Source: Paraburkholderia sp. | Lineage (GTDB): Bacteria > Pseudomonadota > Gammaproteobacteria > Burkholderiales > Burkholderiaceae | DNA: 64,000 nt | Direction: 5' to 3' | NCBI RefSeq assembly: GCF_024281035.1 | Contig: NZ_JAMXLH010000022.1 | Location: 62,001-126,000, forward strand | In this document: positions 8,137 to 27,631 of the stretch, one piece after another | Layout of the letters: each line of letters starts with the position of its first letter | How positions within the stretch are numbered: the stretch's first letter is position 1 | Notes under the pieces: model-generated | Database searches by the model: none | Seen by the model: the letters and a program-made list of their open reading frames with translations, nothing else | What the model was told of the DNA's origin: nothing | Position numbers and translations under genes: made by a program

Positions 8137-8281
8137 CGCCGCCTCCTATACTCGGACGTGGATGATGGGTGATTCTGGAGCACTACTTTGCACCTTGCAA
8201 TGCTCGCGCAAATACACGTGAATGCGCGGAGCCGGCCTGTATGCATGCGTAGCCGTATCGCAAACAAGGAGGAAGAGAACG

Positions 8282-8761
8282 ATGGCGGAATTCCGTTTGA
8301 CCACCTTGTGGTGCATCGAGGCGCCAGTGCAGCCGGTTTGGGACGCGATCCACGATTCACCTGATTGGCCGAGGTGGTGGAGGAATGTCGAGGCGGTGCG
8401 CGAACTGCAGGCGGGCGGGACCGACGGTTTGGGCGCCGTGCATCGTTACACGTGGAAGGGTGCGTTGCCCTATCGTGTGATCATCGACGTGCGCGTCACG
8501 CGCGTCGCGCCGCTCGTTGCGCTGGAGGGAGAGGCAAGCGGCGCGCTGGAGGGCGTGGGACGCTGGCATTTCACAGCCGACGGCAGCCGCACTGTAGTGC
8601 GCTACGACTGGCACGTCAGGACTGCCAGTACCTGGATGAACGCGGTCGCGCTCGCGCCGCTCGCGCGGCTGGCGTTCCGCTGGAATCACGATTCAATCAT
8701 GCGAGAAGGCGGCCTGGCGCTCGCGCGCCTGCTTGAGGCACGTCTTATCGATATCGAGTAG
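8282..8761 (+). CDS. SRPBCC-family (polyketide cyclase/dehydrase-like) protein
   Basis: FRLTTLWCIEAPVQPVWDAIHDSPDWPRWWRNVEAV. Confidence 0.7.
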   Translation: MAEFRLTTLWCIEAPVQPVWDAIHDSPDWPRWWRNVEAVRELQAGGTDGLGAVHRYTWKGALPYRVIIDVRVTRVAPLVALEGEASGALEGVGRWHFTADGSRTVVRYDWHVRTASTWMNAVALAPLARLAFRWNHDSIMREGGLALARLLEARLIDIE

Positions 8762-9147
8762 CGGTCCTGTCGAGCGTTATCGCCCTGCCATGTCGTTGAC
8801 CGGGATTTCCCGGCCGGCCGGCACGGACTGATCGATGGCGGGTACGGCGATACAGCCATCGTATCGCCTCGAAATCGCGATCCAGGGACACATTCCGGAG
8901 TTCATCGGGGCAGGCGACGTTATCGCGAAGGGCCGTTCTGTGTGCTGCTGGTCGACAGCGTCAGGGCCGCTCGCGGTCGCTGCCCGCAATCGCGTAGTCG
9001 CCGGGCGGCCGCGGAGAGCAGGATGAACAGCGGCAAACCGTGATAAGTGCAACAATCGAACTCGTCAGCGCGCTTGCAAGCGCTTTCTGCGAGACGGAGG
9101 GGTTATGAACTACCGCCACCGCTCACTTGCCTTGCATTGGAGGCAAC

Positions 9148-9345
9148 ATGACTGAGATCGAGAAGGAGCCGGTCGTTGCAGTGCTGAACAAGATCCTCGA
9201 ATCCGATCTGGCCGGCGTGGTGCGGTACACGCATTATCCGTTTCTGGTGTTCGGATTCGGCCGCATTCCGAGGCGCACGCGCAGCAGACACCACTTTTCG
9301 ACAGCTTCAAGCTGGCGCACCAGCACGCGAACGTGCGCCAGATGA
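9148..9345 (+). pseudogene. Degenerate bacterioferritin-like fragment
   Basis: MTEIEKEPVVAVLNKILESDLAGVVRYTHYPFLVFGFGRIPR then out-of-frame sequence; LFDSFKLAHQHANVRQMMGCPGEG continues in another frame. Confidence 0.5.
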
Positions 9346-9451
9346 TGGGCTGCCCGGGCGAAGGCTGACTTACTGAATCGGGCACCGATCATCTGCTGCG
9401 CTACCGGTCCGGCGCAGCGAATCAGAACGGCGATTGAGGGGTTGACGACCC

Positions 9452-10141
9452 ATGATGCTGACGCTCGCCAACGTGTCGAAGCACTACAACGGCACCACGC
9501 CGCGCAACGTGCTGCGCGGCGTGAATCTCGAACTGCGGGCAGGTGAACGCGTCGCGATCATGGGCGAATCGGGTGTCGGCAAATCGACGCTGCTCAATCT
9601 CGCGGCCGGACTCGACCGGCCGGATGCGGGACAAATCGTCTTCGACGGACAGGATCTCGCCACGCTCGACGACGACGCTACCACCCTGCAGCGCCGCCAG
9701 AAAATGGGTTTCGTGTTCCAGGCGTTCCATGTGCTGCCGAACCTCTCCGCCGCGCAGAACATCGCGCTGCCGCTGCTCTTGAACGGCATGCGCGCGAAAG
9801 ACGTGCCGGTGCGCGTGTCGTTCGTGCTGCTCGCGGTCGGGCTCGGCGGGCGCGAACACGCGTTGCCGCGCGAATTGTCGGGCGGCGAATTGCAGCGCGT
9901 AGCGATCGCGCGTGCGCTCGTGCATCAGCCGCGTCTTGTGCTGGCCGACGAGCCCACCGGCAATCTCGATCACGACACGACGATGCGCATCCTCGCGCTG
10001 CTGCGCGAGCTGGCGCAAAAGAACGGCGCGGGCGTGCTGCTCGCGACGCACTCGGCGGCAGTGGCGGCTAGCGCCGACCGCGTGCTGCGGCTCACGCCCG
10101 ACGGGCTCGAGCCGTACGCGCCGGGCGCAGGCCGAGTGTAG
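9452..10141 (+). CDS. ABC transporter ATP-binding protein, LolD/MacB-type
   Basis: GESGVGKSTLLNLAAGLDRPDAG, ELSGGELQRVAIARALVHQPRLVLADEPTGNLD. Confidence 0.85.
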   Translation: MMLTLANVSKHYNGTTPRNVLRGVNLELRAGERVAIMGESGVGKSTLLNLAAGLDRPDAGQIVFDGQDLATLDDDATTLQRRQKMGFVFQAFHVLPNLSAAQNIALPLLLNGMRAKDVPVRVSFVLLAVGLGGREHALPRELSGGELQRVAIARALVHQPRLVLADEPTGNLDHDTTMRILALLRELAQKNGAGVLLATHSAAVAASADRVLRLTPDGLEPYAPGAGRV

Positions 10142-21419: not shown

Positions 21420-22397
21420 TCAGATGGTTGAGGGTTCGATCTGCTTGCGGACTGCTGCGGCGCGTGCCTGAGAGCAGCCCAGGAATTTCCGGATCTCGGT
21501 CACCGTCGCGCGCAGCTGGCCGGCTGCTACTGCGGTAATGACTCGGGTCACGTCGTCTGCCTGCTCGACTACTGGCAGGCGAAGCACCGGGGCGGCCTCG
21601 ACTGCGACCGGCTCCGCGACCGGCGCAACGGCGTTACTCGCGGACGTGACTGCCGTTACTGACTCGGCGTGACTGCCTTTAGTGGCGGGCGTTACCGCGA
21701 TTTCAGTCAGGTCAGTAGGGCGAAGTGCGAGCAGCCAGCAGAAGCACGCGACGGCTTCCAGTACGGCGGCGAAGGCGAGGCCGGTCACGAGTTCGGCGCG
21801 CGGCGCGGCCACGCCAAATTCGGTCAGGGCGCCGGTAACCGGATCAGCCAGGGCGGAGGCTCGGGCTGCGGTGGCGCGGTCCTGTGCGGCCTCAGCGCGG
21901 CGCGCTTCGGCTTGCTCGATGTTCAGTGCGCCGACGCGAGCAGCAGCAGCGGTGCGCTCGGCGGTCAGGCTTGGGCATGGCTCGACGCAGCGACGCGCAT
22001 TGGTGCGGGCCAGTCGCGTTACTGCGTCTGCACGGTCACGTGCGATCTCGGCCAGACCGCGTCCCTGTGCCGTGACTACCAGCACCGCGGCGGCGCGCAG
22101 TTCACCCGCATGCTTCTGCGCCATAAGGAAAAAGACGGCATGTCCGTAGCAGGTAGCGGCCATGCAGCTGACCCACAGCACCGCGCCGATCACCCGAACG
22201 GACCAGCCGTGCGGCCGGCAGAGGGCGGGCAGCAGGTGAGCCGCGACGACGAGCACGACGCCTACGGCGACCCACAGAGCGCGCTCAGCCAAAAAGCCGC
22301 CACGCTGCCAGCCAGCCATGATTGAGAGGCACGCCGCGGTCACGGTAGCCGCGACTGCGAGTAATGCTGGGTAAGCGCGCATGGGCATGGCGGTCAC
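21420..22397 (-). CDS. Multi-TM membrane protein with C-terminal winged-helix-like domain
   Basis: Several hydrophobic segments; C-terminal VITAVAAGQLRATVTEIRKFLGCSQARAAAVRKQIE. Confidence 0.5.
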   Translation of the reverse strand: MTAMPMRAYPALLAVAATVTAACLSIMAGWQRGGFLAERALWVAVGVVLVVAAHLLPALCRPHGWSVRVIGAVLWVSCMAATCYGHAVFFLMAQKHAGELRAAAVLVVTAQGRGLAEIARDRADAVTRLARTNARRCVEPCPSLTAERTAAAARVGALNIEQAEARRAEAAQDRATAARASALADPVTGALTEFGVAAPRAELVTGLAFAAVLEAVACFCWLLALRPTDLTEIAVTPATKGSHAESVTAVTSASNAVAPVAEPVAVEAAPVLRLPVVEQADDVTRVITAVAAGQLRATVTEIRKFLGCSQARAAAVRKQIEPSTI

Positions 22398-23185
22398 GCT
22401 GCGTCGGCCAGCTCTCCAGTCTCAACCTCCTCGAAAACGCCAGACTCGGTAACGCGATACCAGGTATCGGCTTTGATGTTCTCGCCGACGTACCCGACCG
22501 CGAAGCGGGCGCGCTCATTGGAGTCGAGATAGGCGACTGATACGGATGCATTGGGGCCGACCTTGAATTGCGCGCCAAACCCAGCAACCGCGATGACGGC
22601 GTTTTCGCCAGCGGCCACGATCTGCGCGTAGTTGCCGCTGGAGCCGATCCGCGCGTAGTAGCCGCTGGAGCCGATCTGCGCGTAGTCGCCGCTGGAGCCG
22701 ATCCGCGCGTAGTCGCCGCTGGAGCCGATCTGCGCGGAGTTGCCGCTGGAGCCGATCTGCGCGTAGTCGCCGCTGGAGCCGATCTGCGCGTAGTTGCCGC
22801 TGGAGCCGATCTGCGCGTAGTTGCCGCTGGAGCCGATCTGCGCGGAGTAGCCGCTGGAGCCGATCCGCGCGTAGTCGCCGCTGTTATCGCTCTCGGCCGG
22901 TACGCCCACCTTCTCGACCTCAACCTTGAGCGCCGTCGTGTCGGCGATGAGCTTGTCGCTCGCGGCCTTCGCGTCGGCAGTGATGTCTCCTACAGCCGCC
23001 GGCTCGACCAGTAGATGACCGAAGGCGTGATCGGTGAGCCACGACGAATCGTCGAATCGGCTGTCATCGCGCAGCGCCTGCTGCACGACGCCGTAATCGG
23101 CACCCTGCGGAAACTTACGGATGAACCAGCCATAGCCATCCGTACAGGCTTCCCATTGGCGCAGCAGGTCGGTGGTGATCTTCAT
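22394..23185 (-). CDS. Phage protein with nonapeptide solenoid repeats (G-[NDY]-[YS]-A-[QR]-I-G-S-S)
   Basis: Nine tandem 9-aa repeats; conserved flanks (LRQWEACTDGYGWFIRKFP... and ...RARFAVGYVGENIKADTWYRV). Confidence 0.7.
   Translation of the reverse strand: MKITTDLLRQWEACTDGYGWFIRKFPQGADYGVVQQALRDDSRFDDSSWLTDHAFGHLLVEPAAVGDITADAKAASDKLIADTTALKVEVEKVGVPAESDNSGDYARIGSSGYSAQIGSSGNYAQIGSSGNYAQIGSSGDYAQIGSSGNSAQIGSSGDYARIGSSGDYAQIGSSGYYARIGSSGNYAQIVAAGENAVIAVAGFGAQFKVGPNASVSVAYLDSNERARFAVGYVGENIKADTWYRVTESGVFEEVETGELADAA
22629..22871. repeat. Tandem 27-bp repeat, 9 units
   Basis: Units TAGT[T/C/A]GCCGCTGGAGCCGATC[T/C]GCGCG read directly, plus 12-bp partial unit. Confidence 0.95.
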
Positions 23186-24159: not shown

Positions 24160-24283
24160 CTCTCACTCCAGCGATCTGGCGGGGTGGTGAGAGGTGGGCT
24201 AAGTACAGAGCACTGTGCGGCAATGCTCTCCGCTTAGCCCACTTCTGACGCTGGGCGCTCTTGGGGAGCGCTTGAGATGAATT

Positions 24284-24301
24284 CTACAAATACGTTTGTA
24301 G
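24284..24301. promoter_or_regulatory. CI-type operator, left: CTACAAATACGTTTGTAG
   Basis: Perfect CTACAA-N6-TTGTAG dyad, same as the site upstream of cro. Confidence 0.8.
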
Positions 24302-24316
24302 ATTGGCAAGAGGTTT

Positions 24317-24334
24317 CTACAATTTAATTTGTAG
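24317..24334. promoter_or_regulatory. CI-type operator, left: CTACAATTTAATTTGTAG
   Basis: Perfect CTACAA-N6-TTGTAG dyad, start 33 bp from the previous operator. Confidence 0.8.
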
Positions 24335-24387
24335 ATGCCAGCGTAGCGCGAAGCGGAGGCCGTACGCGAGATGAGGAAAGGGGAGGA

Positions 24388-24407
24388 AGCGCCCCGACCG
24401 GGGCGCT
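24388..24407 (-). terminator. Hairpin AGCGCCCC-GACC-GGGGCGCT downstream of 24422-25054
   Basis: 8-bp perfect stem; pyrimidine-rich but weak T tract on minus strand. Confidence 0.45.
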
Positions 24408-24421
24408 TGAGGAATGGGTGC

Positions 24422-25054
24422 TTAGAAGGCGGTGATGTTCTTAATCTTCACGCTGTCCGCGCCCTCCTGGATGATGGGTGTCTCGAATTTCCAGCGCGCA
24501 TGCGGCTCAAGGTTGTTGACGTTTGCCAGATCGCTACCGAGCTGCGTGCCGTCCTTGTCGTAGACATTAAGTTCAATCTGAACATAAGAGTATTCCTTGC
24601 CAGTATTGTTCTGCAGAACACCTCCGACGCTTACGCCACCATATTCATTCCGATGCAGGGTGAAACTTGAGACGGTAAAGCGTGAAGCATCATCATCAGC
24701 AGCAACTGCAGGCGTGGGTGCGGCAGCCACCGGAGCTGGTGTGTTGGATGCGGTTGCTTCAACTTGCCGGGAAGGCGATGTCGACCGCTCTCCAAGGTCA
24801 CTTCCCGCGATGATGACGAAGAAAATGACGGTGAGCGCAATGCCAGCTCCAAGTAGATCTTTACTGGACTTAGGCGGCTGATCGGCAGCCGCGCCGCTTG
24901 GCTTGAGGAAGAATAAGATGAGTGCTGCCACGAAGGGGCTGATTAAGATGGAGATGATAAACCAAACAAATTTATTCTTTCCTTTTCGGCCCGAATAAGC
25001 GGATACAACAAAATTCAGTGCAAGAATCGCTAAATATCCCCAGATATTCATCAT
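24422..25054 (-). CDS. Membrane protein with C-terminal FxLYD-like domain, in rexAB-like position
   Basis: Three hydrophobic segments, Ala/Pro linker, then FTLHRNEYGGVSVGGVLQNNTGKEYSYVQIELNVYDKDGTQLGSDLANVNNLEPHARWKFETPI. Confidence 0.6.
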   Translation of the reverse strand: MMNIWGYLAILALNFVVSAYSGRKGKNKFVWFIISILISPFVAALILFFLKPSGAAADQPPKSSKDLLGAGIALTVIFFVIIAGSDLGERSTSPSRQVEATASNTPAPVAAAPTPAVAADDDASRFTVSSFTLHRNEYGGVSVGGVLQNNTGKEYSYVQIELNVYDKDGTQLGSDLANVNNLEPHARWKFETPIIQEGADSVKIKNITAF

Positions 25055-25133: not shown

Positions 25134-25913
25134 TCAGAGACGATTATCATTCCAAACGGCGCGGCCCGCTATCATCGTTCGATCATCTGGCGGTAAAACC
25201 TTGTCTGGATGCGATATTTTGTCGGGATTGTCGCTGCGCATAATCCACGCTTGACCACCCAACGCTGGGTGGTAGTCACGGATCAGCCGCTTAAGCACAA
25301 GGCCGCCATCCGGCTTGCATATCAGGTACACCTTTCCCTCAACCGGGCTGGTGTCCGCCGTATTGATCAACACAACGCAGCCGTCCTGAATCGTAGGCAT
25401 CATGCTCCCACCGGACGCGTAAATAATGCGCGCTGCATTTTCTGGGACGCCGAAATCCCTGAGACTAGAACGTTTGAAGGCCAAGCCACCCTTAACAACA
25501 ATATGGTCTTGGAACCGGCCTTCACCGCATGCGGCTGATACGTCAAGTTGAGGCACGTACGCAAACTCTTCTTCGGTTGGTCTTTGTAGTTCGCTTGCGA
25601 GCCTACCTGAATTCGCTTTTTCATGCGATCCCGTCACCAGGCCTTCTTGATTGCCAGTCAGTGATTTGGTTGACGGAAGAGTTGGGGTTGGCCCGCGATT
25701 GTAAGCGAGCCAGTTCACGTCGACTCGGAGCACTTCTGCGAGGCGGGGCGTGTATTTGCTCGATTTGGCGTTCTTGTTTCGATCTAGCAAGTATTGGATG
25801 TTCTGCGGCTGGCAGCCATCCCCAACCCGCCGCGCGAGTTCACTCTGATCAGATTGTGGGTCAAGCCCAGCCAATTTCATCGCCCATTCCAGGCGGTCTG
25901 CGAAGGTATTCAT
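25134..25913 (-). CDS. CI-type repressor, N-terminal HTH and C-terminal S24 (LexA-like) peptidase
   Basis: FADRLEWAMKLAGLDPQSDQSELARRVGDGCQPQNIQYLLDRNKN and ASGGSMMPTIQDGCVVLINTADTSPVEGKVYLICKPDGGLVLKRL. Confidence 0.9.
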   Translation of the reverse strand: MNTFADRLEWAMKLAGLDPQSDQSELARRVGDGCQPQNIQYLLDRNKNAKSSKYTPRLAEVLRVDVNWLAYNRGPTPTLPSTKSLTGNQEGLVTGSHEKANSGRLASELQRPTEEEFAYVPQLDVSAACGEGRFQDHIVVKGGLAFKRSSLRDFGVPENAARIIYASGGSMMPTIQDGCVVLINTADTSPVEGKVYLICKPDGGLVLKRLIRDYHPALGGQAWIMRSDNPDKISHPDKVLPPDDRTMIAGRAVWNDNRL

Positions 25914-25929
25914 ACAAAGGATTTTGTAT
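25912..25929. promoter_or_regulatory. Operator ATACAAAGGATTTTGTAT overlapping the cI start
   Basis: 6-bp palindromic arms, one mismatch per half to CTACAA/TTGTAG. Confidence 0.6.
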
Positions 25930-25936
25930 AAGTATG

Positions 25937-25954
25937 TTGCAAAAGTGTTTGTAA
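25937..25954. promoter_or_regulatory. Degenerate operator TTGCAAAAGTGTTTGTAA
   Basis: Right arm 5/6 and left arm 3-4/6 match to consensus, same 18-bp layout. Confidence 0.45.
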
Positions 25955-25958
25955 CGTG

Positions 25959-25976
25959 CTACAAATTCGCTTGTAG
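25959..25976. promoter_or_regulatory. Operator CTACAAATTCGCTTGTAG upstream of cro
   Basis: Perfect CTACAA-N6-TTGTAG dyad. Confidence 0.8.
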
Positions 25977-25993: not shown

Positions 25994-26332
25994 ATGAGCG
26001 AACCCACGAACCCCACAACGACTGGAATCGACGACGCAATAAGCCGCGCCGGGTCCCAGAAGGCGCTCGCCGCGCTTATCGGCTCCACCCAGCAGATGGT
26101 CTCCTACTGGAAGAGATCGGGCGTTGTAACTGACGCGAGCATGTGCGCAGCCATCGAGAGTGCGACAGGGGTTGCGTGCGAACGCCTCAATCCGAATGAG
26201 AATTGGGCAAGCCTTCGTTCCGTTTTGTGCGTCCCCAATCGCGAGGGGTTGGACGCCTCCGATGACGTTCAGCCTCCTGTTGGCGGAATCAACAAAGGTT
26301 CGAAGTTGGCGGCGGTTGCGCGAGCTTCGTGA
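25994..26332 (+). CDS. Cro/YdaS-like HTH regulator
   Basis: IDDAISRAGSQKALAALIGSTQQMVSYWKRSGVVTDASMCAAIESATGVACERLNP, divergent from cI. Confidence 0.8.
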   Translation: MSEPTNPTTTGIDDAISRAGSQKALAALIGSTQQMVSYWKRSGVVTDASMCAAIESATGVACERLNPNENWASLRSVLCVPNREGLDASDDVQPPVGGINKGSKLAAVARAS

Positions 26333-26866: not shown

Positions 26867-27631
26867 GTGGTTGGCAATCCAGCCGCCTCCTGCCTCAGAT
26901 TAGCAGTCCTATGCGGCACCGCGCCGCGGGAGATCTCCAGATTGAACACCCACGTTCTGAATGCTGGCGCGATCACCATGTCGAGCCGGGAGATTGCTGA
27001 GCTTGTCGAATCCCGGCACGACACGGTCAAGCTCACGATGGATCGCCTGCGTGACCGCGCCCTGATCACTTTTACGTCATTGGCGGAAAAGTCCAATGGC
27101 GGCCGCCCGGGCATCGTCTATTGCGTCGGCAAGCGCGACAGCTACGTAATCGTCGCGCAGCTCTCGCCCGAATTCACTGCGCGCCTGGTGGATCGCTGGC
27201 AGGAACTCGAATCGCAGGCGGCAGGCGCCGCGCCGGCCGTACCCCAGACGTTCGCCGACGCGCTACGCCTTGCGGCGGATCAGGCGGAGCAGATCGAGGT
27301 CCAGCGCCTTCAGCTTGAGCATCAGCAGCCGGCTGTTGATTTCGCGCGAGCGGTGCGCAACACGTCTGACGCTATCAGCGTCGGCGATATGGCGCGCGTG
27401 CTCGGCATTGGCCAGAACCGGCTCTTCCGGCAACTGCGCGCCGATCACATCCTGATGGCCGAAAACCAGCCTTACCAGAACTACATCGACCGGGGCTATT
27501 TCCGCCTGGTCGAGAACGTCTGGCTCGACGCGGCCAAGGAGCCGCATCCCACCTTCAAAACGCTGGTTACTGGACGCGGGCAGGTCTATCTGCAGCGCAA
27601 GTATGGCCGGCAAACGGAGCAAGCAGCATGA
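26867..27631 (+). CDS. Rha-like N-terminus plus antirepressor C-terminal domain
   Basis: MSSREIAELVESRHDTVKLTMDRL and DAISVGDMARVLGIGQNRLFRQLRADHILMAENQPYQNYIDRGYF. Confidence 0.75.
   Translation: MVGNPAASCLRLAVLCGTAPREISRLNTHVLNAGAITMSSREIAELVESRHDTVKLTMDRLRDRALITFTSLAEKSNGGRPGIVYCVGKRDSYVIVAQLSPEFTARLVDRWQELESQAAGAAPAVPQTFADALRLAADQAEQIEVQRLQLEHQQPAVDFARAVRNTSDAISVGDMARVLGIGQNRLFRQLRADHILMAENQPYQNYIDRGYFRLVENVWLDAAKEPHPTFKTLVTGRGQVYLQRKYGRQTEQAA

Follow-up and report, generated by a model that had tools for sequence, protein, structure and literature searches.

The window, by which we mean the whole 64-kb stretch of DNA analysed, carries a prophage in which genes for integrase, replication, terminase, portal and capsid can be recognised, and in its lysogeny region a 210-codon ORF lies on the strand of a cI-like repressor gene (Table 1). 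The ORF opens with ATG, and a plausible ribosome site, GAGG, stands 5-6 nt 5' of an ATG-ATG. When the local region was shuffled 500 times with dinucleotides preserved, a stop-free run of at least its length arose 4 times, and sequence homology to the FxLYD family NF038353 and to phrog_14275 confirms it as a real gene. Its G+C content is 51%, against 62% for the window.

Table 1. Features of the lysogeny region (window coordinates)
Feature	Position	Strand	Basis
Membrane-anchored FxLYD protein gene, 210 aa	24422..25054	-	ORF, NCBIfam, PHROG, AlphaFold
N-terminal two-helix hairpin module, residues 1-55	24890..25054	-	Homology to phage hairpin/zinc-ribbon family
Third predicted TM helix, residues 64-86	24797..24865	-	Hydropathy, AF2
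Ser/Ala/Pro-rich linker, residues 87-123	24686..24796	-	Sequence; low pLDDT
FxLYD beta-sandwich, residues 124-210	24425..24685	-	NF038353; pLDDT about 90; Foldseek
cI-like S24 repressor	25134..25913	-	PF00717 E=5e-9; phrog_4 transcriptional repressor E=1.6e-35
YdaS/Cro-like regulator, divergent from cI	25994..26332	+	PF15943 E=1e-12
Rha/KilAC-type antirepressor	26867..27631	+	PF03374 E=1.4e-22; phrog_63 E=1.4e-64
OR-like operator, exact match	25913..25928	+	Pattern scan
OR-like operator, 1 mismatch	25938..25953	+	Pattern scan
OR-like operator, 1 mismatch	25960..25975	+	Pattern scan
OL-like operator, exact match	24285..24300	+	Pattern scan
OL-like operator, 1 mismatch	24318..24333	+	Pattern scan
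pL-like promoter, TTGCCA-17-TAGAAT, overlapping OL-like sites	24281..24309	-	Consensus match only
GC-rich hairpin 3' of stop codon, no clear T-tract	24387..24408	-	-18.1 kcal/mol, z -3.5

The operator pattern TACAAANNNNTTTGTA has five matches in the whole window at up to two mismatches, where 0.30 were expected and 0 of 100 shuffles gave five. Three of them separate cI from the cro-like gene, and the other two lie beyond the FxLYD gene, which is thereby placed, like rexAB, between OL- and OR-like operators, in line with the rexAB position that the first-pass annotation had proposed. The gene begins 79 bp downstream of cI, and a scan of this gap found no terminator-like or promoter-like site; co-expression with cI in the lysogen, by co-transcription, would be consistent with this layout. 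The hairpin said to follow the gene is indeed stable (Table 1), but it has no clear T-tract and was therefore not scored as an intrinsic terminator. The window cI itself is mosaic, since its S24 half is 87% alike to that of one locus (L085, 3686-4483), with which the DNA-binding half is not shared, and its DNA-binding half is 75% alike to that of another (L083, 4779-5597), in which the S24 half is different.

Three TM segments, an Ala/Pro linker and a C-terminal beta domain had been read from the sequence, in agreement with the hydropathy peaks at residues 1-19, 32-50 and 67-85, with the AF2 helices at residues 3-21, 28-49 and 64-86, modelled at low confidence, and with the match to FxLYD NF038353 (E=8.6e-22; 76.8 bits, exceeding the curated cut-off of 23). 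AlphaFold models the C-terminal part as a beta-sandwich with a pLDDT of about 90. The domains have precedents, in phrog_14275 and, for FxLYD, in exported proteins as well.

The protein was not found in the other genomes of the genus sampled, nor did motif-based scanning detect it in viral and genome contigs; in phage records, tblastn and DNA searches gave FxLYD domains in haloviruses but nothing closely related, and a plasmid search only Clostridioides FxLYD proteins. PADLOC gave no match, no solved structure was convincingly matched by sequence, and a literature search gave no paper naming the FxLYD domain. The viral-library fold matches (best E=3.6e-7) were to uncharacterised phage proteins for which no function is given. 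Hairpin matches in Klebsiella phages (E 0.4-0.5) were too weak to be relied on, and phrog_14275 matches in other genomes were discarded, as mostly the zinc-ribbon end was aligned.

The hairpin anchor and its recurrence behind cI genes

The N-terminal module belongs to a phrog_9201-like family defined by a two-helix hairpin and the motif K-G-x-x...W...ISP. A hairpin family HMM scored the window protein at 32.9 bits (E=2e-8), against 8.9 bits for the best of 2000 shuffles of the N-terminus, and further matches were obtained with phrog_9201 (E=1.4e-5) and by BLASTP with P0005 (E=5e-15). When 350 genomes of the family were searched with the hairpin profile, six were positive and four had a cI-like gene directly ahead of the hairpin gene; however, the window and G673, two of these four, had contributed to the profile, so that the independent positives are only G547 and G732, set against the negatives G006 and G662. 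At the G547 locus (L062) only 18 bp separate the hairpin gene from the cI gene ahead of it, a homologue of the window cI (phmmer 1e-35), and the encoded protein is a hairpin joined to a zinc ribbon.

A search with this hairpin/zinc-ribbon protein retrieved 56 viral loci. A cI-like gene on the same strand lies at most 400 bp upstream in 22 of them, or in 16 of the 38 clusters obtained when loci with an alignment score of 0.75 or more are joined (the 16 include the query's own locus, and L119 was assigned by eye), compared with 8 of 562 other predicted genes at the same loci (Fisher p=1.1e-15). Repressors were called by iterative phmmer from five known cI proteins, and Pfam, run on 65 upstream ORFs, agreed in outline (HTH_3 in 15, S24 in 12). 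At 25 of the 56 loci the 2 kb upstream contain no co-directional cI gene, and some of these hairpin genes stand beside tail genes; the family is therefore not exclusive to lysogeny operons. Three hairpin/zinc-ribbon genes with no cI nearby (L118, L127 and L128) have tail-assembly-chaperone families (PF08748, three members) among their upstream ORFs, which suggests that the module may also occur as a moron in the tail region.

The slot behind related cI genes in other phages is filled by lipoproteins or small membrane proteins. The comparison of related prophages that the first-pass annotation had called for thus strengthens its case, with membrane and lipoprotein genes recurring at this position and the anchor itself standing behind unrelated cI genes. 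At L024, L051 and L052 the hairpin anchor follows two tandem cI paralogues and bears another C-terminal domain, and the L051/L052 pair has a dN/dS of about 0.14, that is, purifying selection. The tandem paralogues of L024 occupy 8209-9866, ahead of the membrane gene. Three further loci (L095, L098 and L110) have what looks like an envelope operon behind the repressor, in the order cI, small lipoprotein-like gene, hairpin/zinc-ribbon gene. In other Burkholderiales genomes FxLYD genes mostly lie away from repressors, hence the marker of the slot is the hairpin and not FxLYD alone. Among the slot proteins scanned, none was annotated as defence in PADLOC.

Domain exchange and resemblance to described proteins

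The C-terminal parts carried on the hairpin anchor vary, being FxLYD in the window, a Cys-pair domain in L024, L051 and L052, and a zinc ribbon in most viral relatives. The P0005-type C-terminal domain of those three loci also occurs on another anchor, behind cI in the Acidovorax phage Acica; L022 has FxLYD on a zinc-ribbon anchor behind a divergent cI; and P0006, a full-length phrog_14275 member with the order zinc ribbon-TM-FxLYD, is encoded behind a cI gene. In five relatives (L133, L134, L136, L138 and L142) the zinc ribbon is kept and a superinfection-immunity hairpin of the PF14373 type takes the place of the usual one; PF14373 was matched in four of the five, L134 being assigned through its near identity to L133. 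The L133 protein also matches phrog_1039, 'immunity to superinfection', and the genes of L133, L134 and L136 stand behind an HTH regulator gene. By profile-profile comparison, the window-type and PF14373 (Imm) hairpins have no detectable homology. C-terminal domains are exchanged among the hairpin, zinc-ribbon and FxLYD phage proteins. A protein of the Acica locus (Acica_29c; L047, 3806-4324) has a C-terminal domain resembling the surface attachment protein Sap1 (NF046013, E=1e-10, below the NCBIfam cut-off).

The best PDB neighbours of the window FxLYD domain found by Foldseek are DUF1425, IrmA and Cj0090, which are mostly exported proteins. FxLYD relatives in P2-like phage contigs have signal-peptide-like N-termini, so that the window domain is probably periplasmic, and the Cys pair of the alternative C-terminal domain was also counted toward export. 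The positive charges in the first loop would alone predict the opposite orientation, and charge alone is ambiguous. The P2-like cases (L053-L055), in which signal-peptide-like FxLYD proteins are encoded beside the portal gene, represent a second phage niche.

The closest described family is phrog_14275, to which no function is assigned. Like the window protein, which it matches over residues 66-191 (E=2e-14), it combines a membrane anchor with FxLYD at the C-terminus, but it has a zinc ribbon and one TM segment where the window protein has a two-helix hairpin and three TM helices in all; the match covers 31-157 of the 178 profile positions, the zinc ribbon is missing, and the window protein does not qualify as a full-profile member. 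The phrog_9201/phrog_8436 hairpin/zinc-ribbon family, in turn, has a homologous N-terminal hairpin and a recurrent place behind cI, and differs in having a zinc ribbon instead of TM3, linker and FxLYD. Two superinfection exclusion proteins resemble the window protein in other respects. Ltp of Streptococcus thermophilus phage TP-J34, whose gene belongs to the lysogeny module and lies on the same strand as the repressor gene, consists of a membrane anchor, a Ser-rich spacer and an active domain, and blocks DNA injection (PMC3952083); it is likened here by its place in the lysogeny module and by architecture, with a membrane anchor, a spacer of low complexity and a domain outside the cytoplasm, which for the window protein is predicted, although its anchor is a lipid, its domain a repeat domain and its host Gram-positive. 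SieA of phage P22, a small three-TM inner-membrane protein that is made in the lysogen and blocks DNA injection, is similar by description (PMC10883804), but no FxLYD-like domain is reported for it there.

Two identities were considered and rejected. RexAB shares with the window gene, in lambda and in Pseudomonas putida, the operon position behind cI, co-directional with the repressor gene and bounded by OL, and in a P. putida prophage, where defence genes lie behind the CI gene, it provides a tested precedent for the slot (PMC12894663). However, the window has a single gene with no RexA-like partner, since only one ORF of plausible size lies between cI and OL on that strand, and nothing but position ties it to RexAB. 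Imm_superinfect (PF14373, T4 Imm type) likewise has a short two-helix hairpin, and the same zinc-ribbon C-terminus occurs with it in some relatives, but the window protein has no PF14373 match in a Pfam scan and the hairpins are not detectably homologous.

Possible roles of the membrane protein

Because relatives of its anchor occupy the same slot in many other phages, the window protein is a good candidate for keeping rival phages out. We envisage the gene as the promoter-distal one on the transcript that maintains lysogeny by way of the repressor. Its product would be anchored in the inner membrane by the two-helix hairpin and the third helix, while the flexible Ser/Ala/Pro arm would hold the FxLYD beta-sandwich out into the periplasm; in the lysogen, the protein may obstruct entry of an incoming phage genome at the inner membrane or in the periplasm. 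To this reading, with superinfection exclusion of the Ltp/SieA kind as the most likely role, we give about an even chance.

It is possible, though we hold it with less conviction, that the gene serves lysogenic conversion without exclusion, as an envelope protein that benefits the host by altering the lysogen's surface, adhesion or stress tolerance. The likeness of the FxLYD fold to DUF1425, IrmA and Cj0090, the surface roles that FxLYD and the Sap1-like domain of Acica_29c would fit, and the secreted FxLYD proteins at another site in P2-like phage contigs all speak for it, whereas conflict between phages is indicated by how closely the anchor is tied to cI in phages with divergent repressors, and by the swapping of a PF14373 hairpin onto the zinc ribbon. 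A membrane-tethered sensor or regulator of the lysogeny switch, through which the repressor circuit would learn of envelope stress or of the state of the membrane, seems improbable to us. The gene is co-directional behind cI, many relatives have a zinc ribbon instead of FxLYD, and an effect of lambda RexA on the CI switch has been reported (cited in PMC12894663). Against this, the window protein would have no cytoplasmic interaction domain if FxLYD is exported, and the cI genes adjoining the modules differ so widely that a conserved repressor partner is unlikely. We would be equally surprised by a passenger moron with no selected role here and a rex-like placement by coincidence; the lower G+C content and the lack of the protein in other genomes of the genus do fit a recent arrival, but the enrichment of the anchor family behind cI and the purifying selection in the L051/L052 pair argue otherwise.

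If exclusion is the role of the window protein, it may extend beyond this prophage. Tentatively, and with appreciably more doubt than for the single protein, we suggest that the repressor operons of many temperate phages, in the Burkholderiales and beyond, carry a modular exclusion family with exchangeable hairpins, including the Imm type, and exchangeable C-termini (zinc ribbon, FxLYD, Sap1-like), in which each combination might exclude a different set of phages at genome entry. One odd gene has in any case become a searchable class, a cI-linked slot of domain-shuffled membrane proteins; if these do exclude phages, the family would be a ready source of exclusion-gene candidates whose location and expression can be predicted, and would shed light on how the protection that prophages give their hosts is diversified.

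Elsewhere in the window, the reverse-strand ORF 22394-23185, whose matches to tail-fibre PHROGs are weak, contains 9.9 tandem copies of a 27-bp unit (22618-22883), from which IGSSGxYAQ repeats arise in its product.
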